Shown: piece by piece, positions 25,322-36,941 of the stretch
Position numbering within the stretch: the first letter of the stretch is position 1
Layout of the letters: each line of letters opens with the position of its first letter
Assembly (NCBI GenBank): GCA_947625495.1
Contig: CANQOQ010000014.1
Location: forward strand, 1 to 36,941
DNA from: Candidatus Gastranaerophilales bacterium
GTDB lineage: Bacteria; Cyanobacteriota; Vampirovibrionia; Gastranaerophilales; Gastranaerophilaceae
Length of the DNA stretch: 36,941 bases
Direction of reading: 5' to 3'
Notes under the pieces: generated by a model
Databases searched by the model: none
Told to the model about the DNA's origin: nothing
The model's input: the letters and a program-made list of their open reading frames with translations, nothing else
Translations under genes and position numbers: made by a program

Positions 25322-26443
25322 ATGATTATAGGGGTAGTAAAAGAAATTAAATCCGAAGAAAACAGAGTCGGTTTAACTCCTCATTGCATTCAATTATTAA
25401 ACAATAAAGGACATAAAGTATATATAGAGAAAGGTGCCGGAATAGGCAGCGGGTTTGCCGACGAAGAATATGCAAAAGAAGGTGCCGTAATTCTTAACTC
25501 GCCTGAGGAAGTATATCAAATATCCGACATGATTGTAAAAGTAAAGGAACCTCAGCCATGCGAATATAAATTCTTAAAAAAAGAACAAATTATATTTACT
25601 TATTTGCATCTCGCCGTAGAAAAAGTTCTTACAACGGAATTAATCAATAAAAAAATAACGTCTATTGCTTATGAAACAATAGAAACAGAAGATAAAAAAC
25701 TTCCGCTTTTAATTCCGATGAGTGAAATAGCAGGAAGGATGTCTGTTCAAATTGCAGCTAATTTATTAGAAAACAGAAATAACGGTTCGGGAATATTATT
25801 AAGCGGTGTAGCAGGCGTTCCTGCGGGGAAAGTATTAATAGTCGGAGCCGGTTCTGTCGGCATCAATGCTGCTAAAATTGCCGTCGGAATGGGGGCAAAC
25901 GTATGTGTTGCAGATATTGATACTCAAAAATTAAGGGTTATTGAAGATAAATTCGGTTCACAAGTTAAAACTTATATTTCAACCCCGTCTAATTTATCCC
26001 GTCTGATAAAAGAAGCAGATGTTGTTATAGGGGCAGTACTCATCCCGGGACATAAAGCACCTGTCTTAATAACCGAGGATATGGTAAAAAGTATGAAAAA
26101 AGGCTCGGTAATTATAGACGTTTCCATTGACCAAGGCGGAATCGTCGAAACGATGGACAGGATAACAACCCATAAAAACCCGACATACGAAAAATACGGA
26201 GTTATTCACTATTGCGTTTCCAACATGCCCGGCAGTGTAGCTCGAACTTCAACACTTGCATTAACTAATGAAACAATAAAATATATTTTAAAAATTGCGG
26301 ATAACGGGTTGGTTAATTCAATCAAAACTGACGCCGCTTTAGCAAAAGGAGTAAATACTTTTAAAGGCTTCCTCACAAACAAGGGAGTTGCCGAGGCTCA
26401 TAATCTTGAATATACCGAGATCCCAAGCCTTATCGGTTTTTAG
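25322..26443 (+). CDS. ald: Alanine dehydrogenase
   Basis: A 373-residue NAD-dependent enzyme interconverting L-alanine with pyruvate and ammonia. Family features: IGVVKEIKSEENRVGLTP at the N-terminus, VKVKEPQPCEY, TYLHLAVEK with the catalytic His, the Rossmann motif VGAGSVGINAAKIA, and the C-terminal ALAKGVNTFKG. It begins one base after the pyrF stop, so the two are co-transcribed. It overlaps the convergent radical SAM gene by 14 bases. Confidence 0.95.
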   Translation: MIIGVVKEIKSEENRVGLTPHCIQLLNNKGHKVYIEKGAGIGSGFADEEYAKEGAVILNSPEEVYQISDMIVKVKEPQPCEYKFLKKEQIIFTYLHLAVEKVLTTELINKKITSIAYETIETEDKKLPLLIPMSEIAGRMSVQIAANLLENRNNGSGILLSGVAGVPAGKVLIVGAGSVGINAAKIAVGMGANVCVADIDTQKLRVIEDKFGSQVKTYISTPSNLSRLIKEADVVIGAVLIPGHKAPVLITEDMVKSMKKGSVIIDVSIDQGGIVETMDRITTHKNPTYEKYGVIHYCVSNMPGSVARTSTLALTNETIKYILKIADNGLVNSIKTDAALAKGVNTFKGFLTNKGVAEAHNLEYTEIPSLIGF

Positions 26444-27512
26444 GCTGAAGATCGCAGCACATTTGACAAGCATTAAATACGCCGGTCCTGTATAAATTTT
26501 TTCTGAAACATTTGTATTTAACTGTATTTATAGCTTCTTTTAACGGCATTTCTTTTAAATTTGCAACTTTATATGACAAACAGGGGTATATATCACCTTT
26601 AGGGGTAATATATAAACTGGTCATCGGGATTAAACAATTTTTATATAAATCAGTAATCGCTTTATCCTTCGAATTAAATACTTTTTCTATTGTTTCTATG
26701 CCTCCTGTTGATTTAAATCTGGGGGCATATCTCAGTATTGTATTTGAATGTTTTTGAAGACTTTCAAGTTCTTTATATATCTCTTTAAAGTGCTCCATAT
26801 CAAAATATAATTCAGGCGGATATTGTTTTAAATAAAAGTCCTCACTAAATTCATCATATAAAATTGAATTTTGTCTTAATGGCTGTTTTCTGATAAAAGT
26901 CAACGAAAAAAACTGAGCATTAAGTCTCATTGCCTCTTTGTATAATTTAGGCAAATCATCAAGATTATTTTCAAGAATACATGTTTTGATATCAAGCATC
27001 GGATGTGATTTTTTATCGCGTTTAGAGTTAAACAATTCTAAATTATTTATGACTTTATCCCATAAATGCGGGTAATTACGTATTTCATCATGCTTTGCAC
27101 CATACGCATCTAAAGAAACAGAAAGAAGCAATAATTTATATTTTATAAATGCGTTGATAATTTCTTCATTTAAAGCGATTCCGTTAGATATAACGCTGAT
27201 TTTTCTAAATTTTTCACCGGCTTTTTTGTATATTTCAAGGAAATCCTTTCTTATAAGAACCTCTCCCGCGACAAAAGAAACAAGAGAGAAAGGAGGTAAT
27301 TGGTCAATAATATCAAACCATTCTTTCGTAGATAATTCCTCGATATTTCTTTCACCCGTTATATAGCAAAAGGGACAAGAAAGATTGCACCTGTATGTAA
27401 GTTCAAGAATATATCTAACAGGCATTTTAATCTTACCCGTGCAATTATTATATACTGCTTTTGCATATATATTTCTTGCAATATCAAATAAAGAACTGTA
27501 ATCTAACGGCAT
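26430..27512 (-). CDS. Radical SAM/SPASM domain protein
   Basis: A 360-residue protein. The radical SAM Fe-S motif is CNLSCPFCYI (Cys at about 43, 47, 50). SLVSFVAGEVLIRKDF replaces the usual GGEPLL. A C-terminal SPASM-like region has CLIPMTSLYITPKGDIYPCLSY and a CQMCC end. Such enzymes modify peptides, proteins or small molecules. There is no PqqD-like N-terminus and no obvious precursor peptide beside it; the nearest small gene is divergent at 27658. Substrate unknown. Confidence 0.8.
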   Translation of the reverse strand: MPLDYSSLFDIARNIYAKAVYNNCTGKIKMPVRYILELTYRCNLSCPFCYITGERNIEELSTKEWFDIIDQLPPFSLVSFVAGEVLIRKDFLEIYKKAGEKFRKISVISNGIALNEEIINAFIKYKLLLLSVSLDAYGAKHDEIRNYPHLWDKVINNLELFNSKRDKKSHPMLDIKTCILENNLDDLPKLYKEAMRLNAQFFSLTFIRKQPLRQNSILYDEFSEDFYLKQYPPELYFDMEHFKEIYKELESLQKHSNTILRYAPRFKSTGGIETIEKVFNSKDKAITDLYKNCLIPMTSLYITPKGDIYPCLSYKVANLKEMPLKEAINTVKYKCFRKNLYRTGVFNACQMCCDLQPKNR

Positions 27513-32723: not shown

Positions 32724-33512
32724 ATGAAAAAAATATTGTCTGTTTTACTTATATTATTTTTATTGAATACAACGGTCTTTGCGGTAGAATTTGATTCCAG
32801 CATTGATGCTGAGATAAGGAAGGACTATAAGGTGGATGAAAATGATTTACCCGAACTTCCAAAAGCAATACCGACCGCAAATATAGAAGAAGTACCGCCT
32901 CTGCCTGCAGTATCAAAAGCGACAGGAAAAACATACACCCTAAAGGGCGGAAGCAAAGTAAATTTAATATTAAGGAATAAACTTAGCGACTGGAGTCCGA
33001 AAGGAACCTATATCTCTTTTAGTTCTTCCAATGATATTTATACAAAAGAAGGATACACAATACCGTCAGGAACAATCTTTAAAGGCAGAGTAACCGATTC
33101 TCACAGACCTCAATTGACGGGGAACGGAGGACTTGTTGAGTTATGCGTTGATGAAATCCATCTAAACGGTGTTATGTCTAAAATTGATACAAAAATAGCA
33201 CTCGCAAATTCAAAAAAAGTTTTCCGCTCGGATATTAAAGGGCAGCGTAAATACTGGAAAAATTTTGCAAAAGCGACTAAACCGGGGCAAAAGGCATTTA
33301 AAGCAACAAGCGGAGCTGCCCACGAGATGGCATCAATACCAATCATTAATTTACTATCTCCCGTAATATGGATTGTCGGCGGGGTAGTATATGTAGTTAA
33401 TGCCGTATTTGCACCCGTTATAGCAATTTTTTCAAAAGGCGGTTCAGTATCACTTCCCGCAGGAACTCAATTCCAAATTAAAATCTCGGGCGATACTCAA
33501 ATAAAAGGATAA
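32724..33512 (+). CDS. Secreted hypothetical protein, beta-rich
   Basis: A 262-residue protein with a signal peptide (MKKILSVLLILFLLNTTVFA). A Pro/Glu-rich linker is followed by a beta-rich region: VNLILRNKLSDW, YTIPSGTIFKGRVTDS, LVELCVDEIHLNGVM. Then comes a hydrophobic membrane-like stretch (IINLLSPVIWIVGGVVYVVNAVFAPVIAI, in part) and the end SLPAGTQFQIKISGD. The 'IP-GT-F-G-V' pattern faintly recalls TrbI/VirB10-type barrels, but I would not name it. Its 3' end is duplicated in decayed form at 36576-36655. Confidence 0.6.
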   Translation: MKKILSVLLILFLLNTTVFAVEFDSSIDAEIRKDYKVDENDLPELPKAIPTANIEEVPPLPAVSKATGKTYTLKGGSKVNLILRNKLSDWSPKGTYISFSSSNDIYTKEGYTIPSGTIFKGRVTDSHRPQLTGNGGLVELCVDEIHLNGVMSKIDTKIALANSKKVFRSDIKGQRKYWKNFAKATKPGQKAFKATSGAAHEMASIPIINLLSPVIWIVGGVVYVVNAVFAPVIAIFSKGGSVSLPAGTQFQIKISGDTQIKG

Positions 33513-33530
33513 GTTTTTTATAATTTACCA

Positions 33531-33878
33531 TTACTTTAGAATTGATGTATATATAATATGTGTTTTTAGTTTTTTTAACAAATCCAAGATTTCCAAATCT
33601 TTTTCCCTCAAAACTGAATTTTTTATTGGCAGTTTGGAGAATAGCAAAATTCTGATAGTCGGAATTGAAACACCCAGTTTAATCAAATCTCTAATCATTG
33701 TAAGCCACTCAATATCATTAATACTAAATAATCTTTTCCCATCTTTAGATTGTTTTGTTCTCCATGGTTTAATTAGTCCTTCTTCCTCGTAGGTTCTTAA
33801 TCTGTCACTTGTAATACCTAATAATTTAGCAGCTTGACTAATTTGATAGAATGGTTCGTTTAAGTTTAACTGTTTCAT
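33531..33878 (-). CDS. MerR-family transcriptional regulator
   Basis: A 115-residue protein. The N-terminal winged helix-turn-helix is typical: FYQISQAAKLLGITSDRLRT, then YEEEGLIKPWRTKQSKDGKR, then FSINDIEWLTMIRDLIKLG. The last ~40 residues form a short, basic dimerisation tail without the Cys of metal-sensing MerR members; it looks closer to HspR/GlnR-like small members. SD GAGGA is 6 bases before the ATG. It is divergent from the peptide gene, so it probably controls the cassette to its right and its own promoter. Confidence 0.88.
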   Translation of the reverse strand: MKQLNLNEPFYQISQAAKLLGITSDRLRTYEEEGLIKPWRTKQSKDGKRLFSINDIEWLTMIRDLIKLGVSIPTIRILLFSKLPIKNSVLREKDLEILDLLKKLKTHIIYTSILK

Positions 33879-33904
33879 GATTTCCTCAAAATTAATTATA
33901 AGAT

Positions 33905-33930
33905 AGGTTATTGACCTTTAAAACTTAGGT
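33905..33930. promoter_or_regulatory. Putative operator with AGGT/ACCT half-sites
   Basis: AGGT at 33905-33908, ACCT at 33914-33917 and AGGT at 33927-33930 give two overlapping inverted pairs, AGGT-N5-ACCT and ACCT-N9-AGGT. They lie between the divergent MerR start and the peptide promoter, where a MerR dimer could bind. The assignment is inference. Confidence 0.35.
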
Positions 33931-33958
33931 AAATAAATTAGACATTTTTATATATATA

Positions 33959-33988
33959 TTGACATTTAAAAAATATATGTATTATAAT
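33959..33988 (+). promoter_or_regulatory. Consensus sigma-70 promoter for the peptide cassette
   Basis: TTGACA (33959-33964), an 18-base spacer, then TATAAT (33983-33988): a full match to both boxes. Transcription would begin near 33995, leaving an about 100-base leader before the 40-residue peptide gene. The slightly long spacer fits MerR-type activation, in which the protein untwists the promoter. Confidence 0.75.
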
Positions 33989-34093
33989 AACCATGTTTAT
34001 AGAAAAGATAATATTTTTAGTTATTTTTAACAGAATCTAAAAATTAAAAAAATGTAAATATTTATTCTTTAAGTCATTAAAAGGAGAAAATAA

Positions 34094-34216
34094 ATGAACA
34101 AATTATATATAAAAAAAAGACTGAAATATTTATTAATAGTAGCAAGTGCTTGTTGTGTTTATTATCAAGTTAATAATAATTATTGTAAAAATAACCCAAG
34201 CGGATATAATTATTAA
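34094..34216 (+). CDS. 40-residue Cys/Tyr/Asn-rich peptide, candidate RiPP precursor
   Basis: ATG at 34094 with AAAGGAG 7 bases upstream; TAA at 34214-34216. It reads MNKLYIKKRLKYLLIVASAC, then CVYYQVNNNYCKNNPSGYNY. The first half is basic then hydrophobic; the second half is polar with Cys21 and Cys31 and four Tyr. It is 32 bases before a PqqD-like radical SAM/SPASM gene, the position of a precursor peptide. An alternative is a small lipoprotein or membrane peptide: ASAC (17-20) resembles a weak lipobox. Its own promoter and strong ribosome site support real expression. Confidence 0.6.
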   Translation: MNKLYIKKRLKYLLIVASACCVYYQVNNNYCKNNPSGYNY

Positions 34217-34248
34217 TTATTTTTTTAAGCATTAACAAAGGATAAAAA

Positions 34249-35616
34249 ATGAATTGTTATACGCTTCCCTTTTGGCTTTCTTCCCAAACTTATATATTAA
34301 AAGATAAAACTTATTTAGCGTGTATTTTTAACCATAAGTCAAATGAGCTTATAGAATTAGAGGGGCTATCAGCTTTACTTTGGAAGTTACTTTCGGAAGG
34401 TAAAAGTAATTCCGAAATTTTAAAAGTTGCAAGAAAAAATCAGTTTGAAAATGAATTAGAAGATTTTTTAGAAGAATTACATTCTGTTGGTATATTACTT
34501 ATTAATGATAATAAAGAAGAAGATTTAACGAATATACGACCTTATAACAGGGCTAATTTATATGGGATTATGGGTGAACTTGATTTTTGTTTCCAGAAAT
34601 TAGATGATAACGGATTTTTGCCGAATTTATTTTTTGAATTAACATACAATTGTAATTTAAAATGCGTACATTGTTTCAATGACAAAAATTTAAAAGAACA
34701 ACCGACTTTTGAAGATGTTAAACCTATAATAGATGAAGCAATTAAACTTGGTACATTTTTTATAACTTTATCAGGCGGAGAATGTACTTTAAATAAGGAT
34801 TTTATAAAAATTGCCCAATACATAAGAGAAAAAAGACTGGCTTTGTGTATTTATACAAACGGTCAAACTTTTTATGATAATCCGGAACTGCTTGAAAAAG
34901 TAGTAAATTTATATCCCTTTGAAATAGCATTAAGTTTATACAGTATGAATTCTGAAATTCACGAAAAAATTACAGGGATTAAAGGTTCTTATCATAAAAC
35001 ATTAAGTGTAATTAAAAAATTAAAAGAAAAAAATATAAATGTTCGTATAAATTCCTTCCAAACAAAATATAACCCTTATGATTGCAAAGAAATACAAGAA
35101 TTTGCAAAAGAAAATAACGTCAGTTGTGCTATAGATTATGAATTGATAAATAATCCCGATAAATCAAATTCTGATGTAAGAATAACAGAAGAACAATTGT
35201 TAAAAATGTTTAAAGCAAATACCTCACTATATAAGATTGATAATTTCAAAATAATTGAATTCAATGATGTTTTTATGAAAAAAGCATTATTATGCAGTGC
35301 CGGACATAAAGCAATTTCAATTAATCCGAATTTAGATATTTATACTTGTCCAACATTAAAGATACCATTAGGAAACTATAAAAACGTATCTTTAAAAGAA
35401 TTATGGGAAAATAAAGATAATAAATCATCTAAATTATATAAAATAAGAAATATCAGAAGAATTGATTTATCAGACTGTTATAAACACGAATATTGTAAAT
35501 ATTGTTCCTACTGTCCGGGGATTGCACTTTCCGAAGGTTCTTTTTTAAAGAAAAATAAAACTTTTTGTAAAGAAGCAAAAATAAGAATGAAAGTCCATAA
35601 GGAGTTAATTAAATAA
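34249..35616 (+). CDS. PqqD-like/radical SAM/SPASM peptide maturase
   Basis: A 455-residue protein. Residues about 20-88 resemble a PqqD-type peptide-recognition domain (LIELEGLSALLWKLLSEGKS, then LEDFLEELHSVGILLI). The radical SAM core has YNCNLKCVHCF (Cys135, 139, 142) and SGGECTL (176-178 GGE). The C-terminal SPASM part has CSAGHKAISINPNLDIYTCP and a Cys cluster, CYKHEYCKYCSYC, for auxiliary Fe-S clusters. This plan is that of RiPP maturases that make cross-links, epimers or similar changes. AAAGGA precedes the ATG. It overlaps the next gene by one base. Confidence 0.85.
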   Translation: MNCYTLPFWLSSQTYILKDKTYLACIFNHKSNELIELEGLSALLWKLLSEGKSNSEILKVARKNQFENELEDFLEELHSVGILLINDNKEEDLTNIRPYNRANLYGIMGELDFCFQKLDDNGFLPNLFFELTYNCNLKCVHCFNDKNLKEQPTFEDVKPIIDEAIKLGTFFITLSGGECTLNKDFIKIAQYIREKRLALCIYTNGQTFYDNPELLEKVVNLYPFEIALSLYSMNSEIHEKITGIKGSYHKTLSVIKKLKEKNINVRINSFQTKYNPYDCKEIQEFAKENNVSCAIDYELINNPDKSNSDVRITEEQLLKMFKANTSLYKIDNFKIIEFNDVFMKKALLCSAGHKAISINPNLDIYTCPTLKIPLGNYKNVSLKELWENKDNKSSKLYKIRNIRRIDLSDCYKHEYCKYCSYCPGIALSEGSFLKKNKTFCKEAKIRMKVHKELIK

Positions 35617-36500
35617 TGGATTTATCATTAAGATATATTATAAGGTATTTATTTCTAAAACATTTTTTATTATTTTGTAAATTTATCTTAAAAATCAAAG
35701 TAAAAAAATTATTTAAAAGAGATTTGGATTTAAATTCTCCTAGAAGATTAAGTGATAAAATTCAATGGATTAAATTATACGGAAACAAAAAAAACAAAAC
35801 CTATTTATGTGATAAAATTTTGGTCAAAGATTTTGTATCTAAAAAGATTCCCGAATTAAAAATTGCAAAAGTATATCAACAAGGGAATAGTTTTAAAGAT
35901 TTAAATATAAATAAATTGCCTAATAGTTTTGTATTAAAGACAAACCACGCATGGAAAACTAATACTATTATTTTAAACAAGAATATTCTGACAAAAAAAG
36001 AAATAGAAACTATTAATAAAGAATATAAACGATTTTTAAAAATAAACTTCGCATATTGGAGTTATTATGAATTGCAATATAAAGATATAAAACCTCAAAT
36101 TTTTGCGGAGGAATTTCTTGGCGAGTATGAAAATATTGCTAATTATGAAGCATGGTGTTTTAACGGAAAAGTTGAATTTGTATCTTATAGGTTTGTACGG
36201 AAAGACAGTAATACTCATCTTAAAAGTTACCAATATTTTTTTAATTCTAAATGGGAACCTGTTGATTTTTATATAGATTTTAAAGGAGAAGATTATCCCC
36301 CGACAATCATTAATAAAGAAAAAGTTATTAAATATGCTGAGATTTTAAGTAATAATATTGATTTTGTCAGAGTTGACTTTATGGAAAAAAATAAAGAACT
36401 ATATTTTGGAGAAATGACTTTTACTCCTTATTCGGGATTTTTCCAATTTATTCCGGATAAATATGATTATATCTTCGGAGATAAGCTTATTCTTGCTTAA
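35616..36500 (+). CDS. TupA-like ATP-grasp amidoligase
   Basis: A 294-residue protein. LSDKIQWIKLYG and CDKILVKDFV near the start and GEMTFTPYSGFFQFIP near the end match the TupA-like ATP-grasp family, with NSFVLKTNHAW as the ATP-binding strand-loop and VDFMEKNKELYFGEMTF giving the metal-binding acidic residues. Members usually join an amino acid to a sugar or polymer through an amide bond, often in surface polysaccharide clusters. Here its ATG overlaps the maturase stop (TAATG) after AAGGAG, so the two are translationally coupled and may act on the same peptide. Its first ~30 residues are hydrophobic and may anchor it to the membrane. Confidence 0.8.
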   Translation: MDLSLRYIIRYLFLKHFLLFCKFILKIKVKKLFKRDLDLNSPRRLSDKIQWIKLYGNKKNKTYLCDKILVKDFVSKKIPELKIAKVYQQGNSFKDLNINKLPNSFVLKTNHAWKTNTIILNKNILTKKEIETINKEYKRFLKINFAYWSYYELQYKDIKPQIFAEEFLGEYENIANYEAWCFNGKVEFVSYRFVRKDSNTHLKSYQYFFNSKWEPVDFYIDFKGEDYPPTIINKEKVIKYAEILSNNIDFVRVDFMEKNKELYFGEMTFTPYSGFFQFIPDKYDYIFGDKLILA

Positions 36501-36575
36501 TCTTATAACATAGGCACTATACCAAATTTATTCTTCTTCGTAATACTGATTTTTTTAGCGATGAAGTATACGTGG

Positions 36576-36655
36576 CGGCATTTGCACCCGTTATAGCAAT
36601 ATTTTCCAAAGGAGGTTCTATTTCTTGACTGCAGGAACAGGGAAACATCAAAATT
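36576..36655 (+). pseudogene. Decayed copy of the 3' end of the 32724-33512 gene
   Basis: TTTGCACCCGTTATAGCAAT is identical to 33408-33427, and the match continues with scattered changes (AAAGGnGGTTC, GCAGGAAC, AAAATTCT) to about 36655. The frame is broken by an early stop (TTCTTGA). The two copies bracket the MerR-peptide-maturase-ligase cassette in direct orientation. Confidence 0.75.
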
Positions 36656-36680
36656 CTTGATAAGACATTTTTTTTATATT

Positions 36681-36696
36681 AATCTTAAGTAAGATT
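36681..36696. repeat. 16-bp palindrome before ychF
   Basis: AATCTTAAGTAAGATT: 7-base arms and a 2-base centre, 14 bases before the ychF ATG. The tight centre suits a protein-binding site more than a hairpin. Confidence 0.5.
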
Positions 36697-36710
36697 GAAA
36701 GGGAAATATT

Positions 36711-36941
36711 ATGTTGCGAGCAGGAATTGTAGGACTCCCGAATGTAGGAAAATCAACATTATTTAACGCACTTACGTCATCAAAGAATGCCCAAAGCGAA
36801 AATTATCCGTTTTGTACCATTGAACCAAATGTAGGGGTTGTTAATGTTCCTGATGAACGTTTATATATATTAAAAGATTTGGTAAAGACCAATGTCGTAA
36901 TATCTACCGCCATTGAATTTGTTGATATAGCAGGTCTTGTA
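36711..36941 (+). CDS. ychF: YchF/OLA1-type ATPase, partial at the right edge
   Basis: The first 77 codons are present. It reads [20 protein letters not shown] (Walker [10 protein letters not shown]), then [14 protein letters not shown], then VPDERL and FVDIAGLV (Walker B/G3). These are standard for YchF, an Obg-related ATPase that binds ribosomes and responds to redox stress. GAAAGGGA lies about 7 bases before the ATG. The rest lies beyond the window. Confidence 0.95.

Follow-up and report, generated by a model that had tools for sequence, protein, structure and literature searches.

The window analyzed here is the entire 36.9-kb contig CANQOQ010000014.1 (36,941 nucleotides) of a 1.88-Mb genome of a “Candidatus Gastranaerophilales” bacterium. 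A cassette near its right end is, by its architecture, a system for a ribosomally synthesized and posttranslationally modified peptide (RiPP), with a ligase family that is unrecorded for RiPPs in the literature searched. The cassette encodes a 40-residue precursor, a radical S-adenosylmethionine (rSAM)/SPASM maturase, and a TupA-like ATP-grasp ligase, and both enzymes very probably modify the tiny peptide. That the cassette is a RiPP cluster with this precursor is highly likely, and its best overall explanation, which we regard as strongly favored, is a RiPP made through a radical step and a TupA-like ligation. The analysis was purely computational, and the relatives compared are metagenome-assembled genomes (MAGs).

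Cassette organization

The genes and signals of the cassette are as follows.

33531..33878, minus strand: MerR-type regulator, 115 amino acids (aa), divergent from the operon (PF13411, E = 4e-17)
33959..33988, plus strand: sigma-70 consensus promoter TTGACA-N18-TATAAT, 12/12 match
34081..34086, plus strand: Shine-Dalgarno sequence AAGGAG of the precursor gene, recognized by sequence, 7 nt before the ATG
34094..34216, plus strand: precursor peptide MNKLYIKKRLKYLLIVASACCVYYQVNNNYCKNNPSGYNY, 40 aa, with a leader motif common to class A loci
34249..35616, plus strand: rSAM/SPASM peptide maturase, 455 aa (PF04055, PF13186)
35616..36500, plus strand: TupA-like ATP-grasp ligase, 294 aa (PF14305, E = 1e-30; 107.4 bits, cutoff 25)

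An earlier note, made from the sequence, had described these elements, and all were recovered at the same positions, including the promoter, the strong ribosome site, and the stop/start overlap. The ligase gene starts within the stop codon of the maturase gene (TAATG), and this overlap couples the two enzymes in the window. Closely similar promoters occupy the same place in two related loci (L039 and L040), and both of the other intact class A loci have a divergent MerR gene (70 to 80% identity). Promoter-like sites across the region overall showed no excess over shuffled sequences, and only the perfect, locus-conserved site was used.

Precursor peptide and leader classes

The window precursor combines a basic leader (approximately residues 1 to 14, starting MNKLYIKKRLK) with a variable Cys/Tyr/Asn-rich core from approximately residue 19, and it contains three Cys, seven Tyr, and seven Asn residues and no Asp or Glu. 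Maturase homologues are present in 19 of the 41 species of the genus, and their neighborhoods were fetched for comparison. The window and three other loci (L039, L040, and L079) form class A, in which precursors start with MNKLYIKKRLK (window), MKKLYIKRMVK, MKKLYIKKRVK, or MKKLYISKRIS. The start motif M[KN]KLYI[KS] occurs in 4 of the 2,180 ATG open reading frames (ORFs) of the fetched loci, each directly upstream of a class A maturase, and this confinement indicates that the 40-codon ORF is beyond chance. The class A maturases of the relatives are 46 to 53% identical to that of the window. The C-terminal parts of the peptides diverge between loci, with two or three Cys each. The earlier note had anticipated a conserved C-terminal core; instead, conservation lies in the N-terminal leader, and the core is hypervariable.

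Other maturase homologues are accompanied by small ORFs with other leaders, and the expectation of a conserved small ORF beside homologous maturases was thus borne out in several leader types. Class C precursors (leader MLKISRIARHT..., at least two Cys, no TupA gene) are not confined to the genus; three further genera of the family and one Clostridiales MAG have them as well. Class D comprises LKISK-like leaders with TupA-like genes, and YcaO genes are present in two of its loci. The class B leader is acidic (LSxxEINELFxDIIE), and the precursor is located between the TupA-like gene and the rSAM gene; contig C10 of the window's own genome carries a tandem pair of class B units. The maturase tree groups each of classes A, B, and C together but not class D; the separation of classes A, B, and C indicates that leader type tracks the maturase. 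Ten precursors searched against NCBIfam and Pfam gave no meaningful match. The arrangement is that of a RiPP cluster: a short precursor gene with a conserved leader and a separate core beside a modifying enzyme.

Several additional genes were observed at these loci. The two YcaO proteins (PF02624; L046:5219-6890 and L071:7207-8937) lie beside class D precursors, an rSAM, and a TupA-like ligase, giving three candidate modifying enzymes per peptide. An asparagine-synthase-like protein with a GATase domain (PF00733 and PF13537; L069:4292-5983), reminiscent of lasso-peptide cyclases, directly follows a class B maturase. In the window's own genome, a family 8 glycosyltransferase (PF01501; L007:5011-5919) follows the class B units, with a 94% identical copy at the same position in another species (L068), and pflB (L007:2584-4931) seems to carry a frameshift close to its 3′ end, with the glycyl-radical part in an ORF of its own. 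Frameshifted precursors or maturases (L070:5361-5743, L083:5773-7019, and L079:5956-6992) show that gene decay is common in these clusters.

Radical-SAM/SPASM maturase

The maturase scores above the cutoffs of both PF04055 and PF13186 and contains a CxxxCxxC motif (C135/C139/C142) and SPASM cysteines (C349 to C440) that are invariant in 22 homologues. Its structure model (pLDDT score, 88.7) aligns with SuiB over 361 residues (Z = 22.4), spanning positions 3 to 444 and including the peptide-binding N-terminal domain. The top fold matches are the RiPP maturases SuiB, CteB, and SkfB, and the top sequence matches are SkfB, CteB, and PqqE; identity to solved structures is 18 to 22%. The N terminus (approximately aa 3 to 80) was modeled as a PqqD-like RiPP recognition element (RRE), with three strands and three helices (EEEHHH) at 10 to 79. 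The PqqD-like N terminus proposed in the earlier note therefore stands by fold, through the SuiB alignment, but not by sequence, as the PF05402 match (19.8 bits) falls under the Pfam cutoff of 23.4 and was obtained for 2 of the 22 homologues. Scores against curated equivalogs in NCBIfam (AlbA, SkfB, StsB, PapB, and others) were all far below cutoff (e.g., AlbA, 77 versus 850 bits).

Among 84,980 species genomes scanned, full-length maturase homologues (best 80 loci) were found only in Gastranaerophilales and in the one Clostridiales MAG, whose locus (L085) is of class C and has no TupA-like gene. A lone second rSAM/SPASM gene, encoding 360 aa, is present in the window at 26430-27512 on the minus strand and scores below all curated cutoffs.

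TupA-like ligases and neighboring peptides

The ligase of the window matches PF14305 only, with no match to RimK-type families, and a sequence search found no solved structure for a PF14305 relative. Its structure model (pLDDT score, 90.6) has the ATP-grasp fold according to Foldseek and VIA-align and is nearest to D-Ala-D-Ala ligases (Z of ~13), a proximity that says little about the substrate. The one TupA-like ATP-grasp enzyme for which the literature searched gave a characterization, Cj1438C, uses ATP to join a carboxylate to serinol-phosphate or ethanolamine-phosphate as an amide (PMC11800397 and PMC11800379).

Close TupA-like genes are present in 32 of the 41 genomes of the genus, reaching 16 in genome G009 and 32 in the 2.5-Mb genome G021. 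Classes were counted in a sample of 86 genes and their loci. For 42 of the 86, no rSAM gene of the maturase family is nearby, and the ORF downstream, almost always within ~50 bp, encodes the class B leader ahead of a hypervariable, Cys-rich core (peptide-only loci, class P). A further 24 are rSAM-linked class B genes, one of them with another rSAM type; 5 belong to class D, 3 belong to class A, and 12 have no peptide, 7 of these 12 having been picked outside the genus. The linkage of ligase and leader peptide is tight. A leader model was built from 18 G021 and G009 peptides only and run against 5,076 ORFs of ≤180 aa; of its 38 held-out hits (E < 0.1), 37 are no more than 400 bp from a TupA-like or rSAM gene, and the remaining one, in a TupA locus, is 448 bp away. 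A fully supported branch of the TupA tree has classes B and P on one side.

These counts bear on the known role of the family. If the enzymes of the cassette decorated a surface polysaccharide or a small molecule, the 40-codon ORF would be incidental, and two observations speak for this reading: TupA-like enzymes in other genera of the family (L207 to L210) adjoin glycosyltransferase-like genes, and rumen phage contigs carry TupA-like genes without such a peptide. We consider this most improbable, as dozens of TupA loci have a peptide as the only partner, leader ORFs are conserved in all relatives, and no glycosyltransferase or sugar gene was found between 33513 and 36560. Confinement of the ATP-grasp gene to polysaccharide genes, which the earlier note had named as a ground for abandoning the peptide reading, is not what was seen, since in this genus these genes occur mostly with peptides. 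That the TupA-like enzyme acts on the peptide is held to be probable. A phage origin was rejected, because the rumen phage contigs have neither leader peptides nor this rSAM.

Two further proteins accompany TupA-linked peptides or ligases. A Cys-rich protein of ~380 aa with a weak Peptidase_U32 (PF01136) match follows such peptides at seven loci (L200, L216, L217, L228, L229, L231, and L251); U32 proteins include oxygen-independent hydroxylases, and this protein may be a further peptide-modifying enzyme. In L039:85-1890 (601 aa) and L253:913-2565 (550 aa, with a weak B12-binding match), a second rSAM protein overlaps the TupA-like gene.

Core composition and proposed chemistry

In the pathway that we infer, from the action of both enzymes on this peptide to the nature of both bonds and the role of MerR, the RRE-like N-terminal domain of the maturase would hold the leader in place for modification of the core at the radical site. 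The TupA-like enzyme would then activate a carboxylate with ATP and join it to an amine, and the divergent MerR protein would control the shared promoter region. The two-step chemistry proposed in the earlier note is plausible.

For the first step, two or more Cys occur in each of the 18 class A, C, and D cores, with Cys enriched 6.5-fold and Gly 2.6-fold, and 27 of 29 class B cores contain Cys, the two Cys-less ones coming from loci with frameshifts. Because the cores are enriched in Cys and the fold is of the SuiB/CteB/SkfB type, a Cys-based radical cross-link is the likeliest reaction, most likely one that would link a cysteine sulfur to a neighboring residue. The Cys enrichment is compatible with a thioether and nothing more, and this product is assigned with moderate confidence. 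The maturase could instead catalyze another radical reaction, such as epimerization, a C-C or ether cross-link at Tyr, or partial loss of a side chain. SPASM proteins of similar fold do vary in this respect (a C-C link by SuiB, epimerization by EpeE, and a Glu-Tyr link by PqqE), and the window core has five Tyr; however, no residue other than Cys occurs in almost all cores across classes, and Tyr is not enriched (0.9- to 1.2-fold). Another radical outcome is a serious contender, although a less likely one than the thioether.

For the second step, the window precursor lacks Asp and Glu, so that an ATP-grasp enzyme joining side-chain carboxylates would have nothing to act on. The C terminus is the sole carboxylate of the peptide, and formation of a C-terminal amide is therefore the most likely reaction, the partner being a small amine, an amino acid, or, once the leader is removed, the N terminus of the same peptide. 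This product is proposed tentatively.

Graspetide chemistry, in which enzymes such as MdnB and MdnC form lactone or lactam rings by joining the side chains of Asp/Glu in the core to those of Ser/Thr/Lys, was weighed against the same observations. Graspetide loci are known to pair ATP-grasp with SPASM enzymes, the fold matches include MdnC and PsnB, and class P precursors do contain Asp and Glu. Yet the precursor of L040, like that of the window, has neither residue, Asp/Glu are depleted in the cores of classes A, C, and D (0.2- to 0.3-fold), and the enzyme belongs to PF14305 rather than to the RimK-type families or the MdnB/MdnC/PsnB type, its relation to MdnC being that of the ATP-grasp fold in general. 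Such rings are very unlikely for the system, and for the window peptide side-chain closure is excluded by the precursor sequence, whose core offers no Asp/Glu partner.

The ligation could also run in the opposite sense, with an outside carboxylic acid joined to an amine of the peptide (the N terminus after leader removal, or Lys) and the rSAM step unchanged. ATP-grasp enzymes work in both directions, the window core contains Lys 32, and PGM1, as cited in PMC8939145, joins a peptide with a nonproteinogenic acid in pheganomycin. Cj1438C, however, takes the carboxylate to be activated from its large substrate, with a small amine as the incoming partner, and some class B and P cores have no Lys at all (L060, L083, and L196). 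An outside acid is thus unlikely, though clearly less so than graspetide rings, and the C-terminal amide is preferred.

Several observations weigh against a RiPP made by these two enzymes. Class A comprises four loci only, one of which (L079, at the same chromosomal site as L040) is decayed, with a broken rSAM and no ATP-grasp gene. The class B leader model misses the class A leader, and the class C/D model matches it weakly (window, E = 2.6; L039, E = 0.012). The TupA tree puts classes A and D (a 99% group) on the side opposite to B and P, among enzymes without peptide neighbors, and the class A enzyme is tied to its peptide by operon position only. No protease or exporter gene was found inside the cassette, nor was a C39 peptidase found in the window's own genome, and the system is known here from its genes. 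Two proposals are accordingly not made: common ancestry of the class A and B leaders, to the former of which the class B model is blind, and C39/double-glycine export, hinted at by VASA, VAGG, or SLGG ahead of the first core Cys and dropped because of the missing peptidase.

Comparison with known systems

The cassette resembles the streptide, SCIFF/ranthipeptide, and sactipeptide systems (SuiB, CteB, SkfB, and AlbA) in having a leader-bearing precursor upstream of an RRE-bearing rSAM/SPASM protein and shares their predicted fold, auxiliary Fe-S cysteines, and Cys/Gly-rich cores. It differs from them in its hypervariable core and in the TupA-like ligase within the operon. Fixed-leader, hypervariable-core RiPPs, such as prochlorosins, likewise combine one leader type with many unrelated cores, but their enzymes are different, and here there is usually one ligase gene beside each peptide. 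TupA and the Campylobacter enzyme Cj1438C, which act on surface polysaccharides, belong to the same Pfam family, with the same fold and, presumably, the same ATP-dependent ligation of a carboxylate and an amine; unlike them, the cassette has a leader peptide and a peptide maturase and lacks glycosyltransferase and sugar genes.

Graspetides (microviridin and plesiocin, with MdnB/MdnC and PsnB) also have an ATP-grasp ligase beside the precursor, and SPASM partners and YcaO additions are known from their loci (PMC8939145); the cassette is set apart by PF14305 and by the absence of Asp/Glu acceptors from the window precursor. PGM1 is another ATP-grasp enzyme, adding a nonribosomal unit to a ribosomal peptide, but its gene set differs from the cassette. 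The earlier note had called the pairing of a TupA-like ATP-grasp enzyme with a peptide maturase uncommon. Pairs of ATP-grasp and SPASM enzymes have precedent in graspetides (PMC8939145), and what is unreported in the literature searched is the use of a TupA (PF14305) enzyme. The published graspetide survey was seeded with MdnB/MdnC (PMC8939145), so that PF14305 is not expected to be within its reach.

Insertion site

The cassette is bounded by the following features.

32724..33512, plus strand: left flank, a conserved secreted protein of unknown function, outside the system; in relatives, ychF follows directly
36580..36638, plus strand: relict of the upstream ORF, copied from its 3′ end (33407-33466; 84% in an alignment of 61 columns, E = 1e-13)
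36711..36941, plus strand: right flank, start of the ychF GTPase gene, outside the system, recognized by homology to ychF genes of relatives

In nearly all loci of the genus that show both flanking genes, ychF follows the secreted-protein gene after 57 to 96 bp, compared with 3.2 kb in the window. Because these neighbors normally adjoin, and because a relict of the upstream gene's 3′ end lies beyond the cassette, the cassette is interpreted as an insertion. The G+C content of the cassette is 24%, versus 30% for the rest of the window, which is within the range of other stretches.

Unrelated cargo occupies the same site in two other species, and the gap (window 32724-36711; L300 and L301) is an insertion hotspot. 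Genome G012 carries a different cassette of ~5.6 kb there, with ORFs that were named by eye as acyl-carrier-protein-like, ligase-like, synthase-like, and short-chain dehydrogenase/reductase-like. Genome G025 has a single gene of 352 aa, and nearly all others are empty.

Implications for Gastranaerophilales

No report of PF14305/TupA enzymes with RiPPs, and no description of a RiPP from Gastranaerophilales, was found in the open-access literature searched. TupA-like ligases accompany dozens of distinct small peptides, an association that points to a large family of modified peptides so far unrecorded. On balance, it is likely that TupA-like (PF14305) ligases define an unrecorded RiPP class in “Ca. 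Gastranaerophilales,” in which a genome can hold dozens of loci for which the ligase alone suffices; at each of those sampled, a peptide comes next, with a hypervariable core behind the shared leader. Second enzymes that are exchangeable (rSAM/SPASM, YcaO, asparagine-synthetase-like, B12-type rSAM, and U32-like) would have been added in sub-branches such as that of the window.

If so, peptide modification would be added to the roles of an ATP-grasp family that is otherwise known only from surface polysaccharides, and the single carboxylate of the window peptide, its C terminus, makes the reaction testable. That a single leader serves many unrelated cores implies that the enzymes are tolerant. 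The 32 loci of a single genome, each with a different core, suggest rapid diversification, possibly for competition or signaling, in these common but uncultured gut bacteria.

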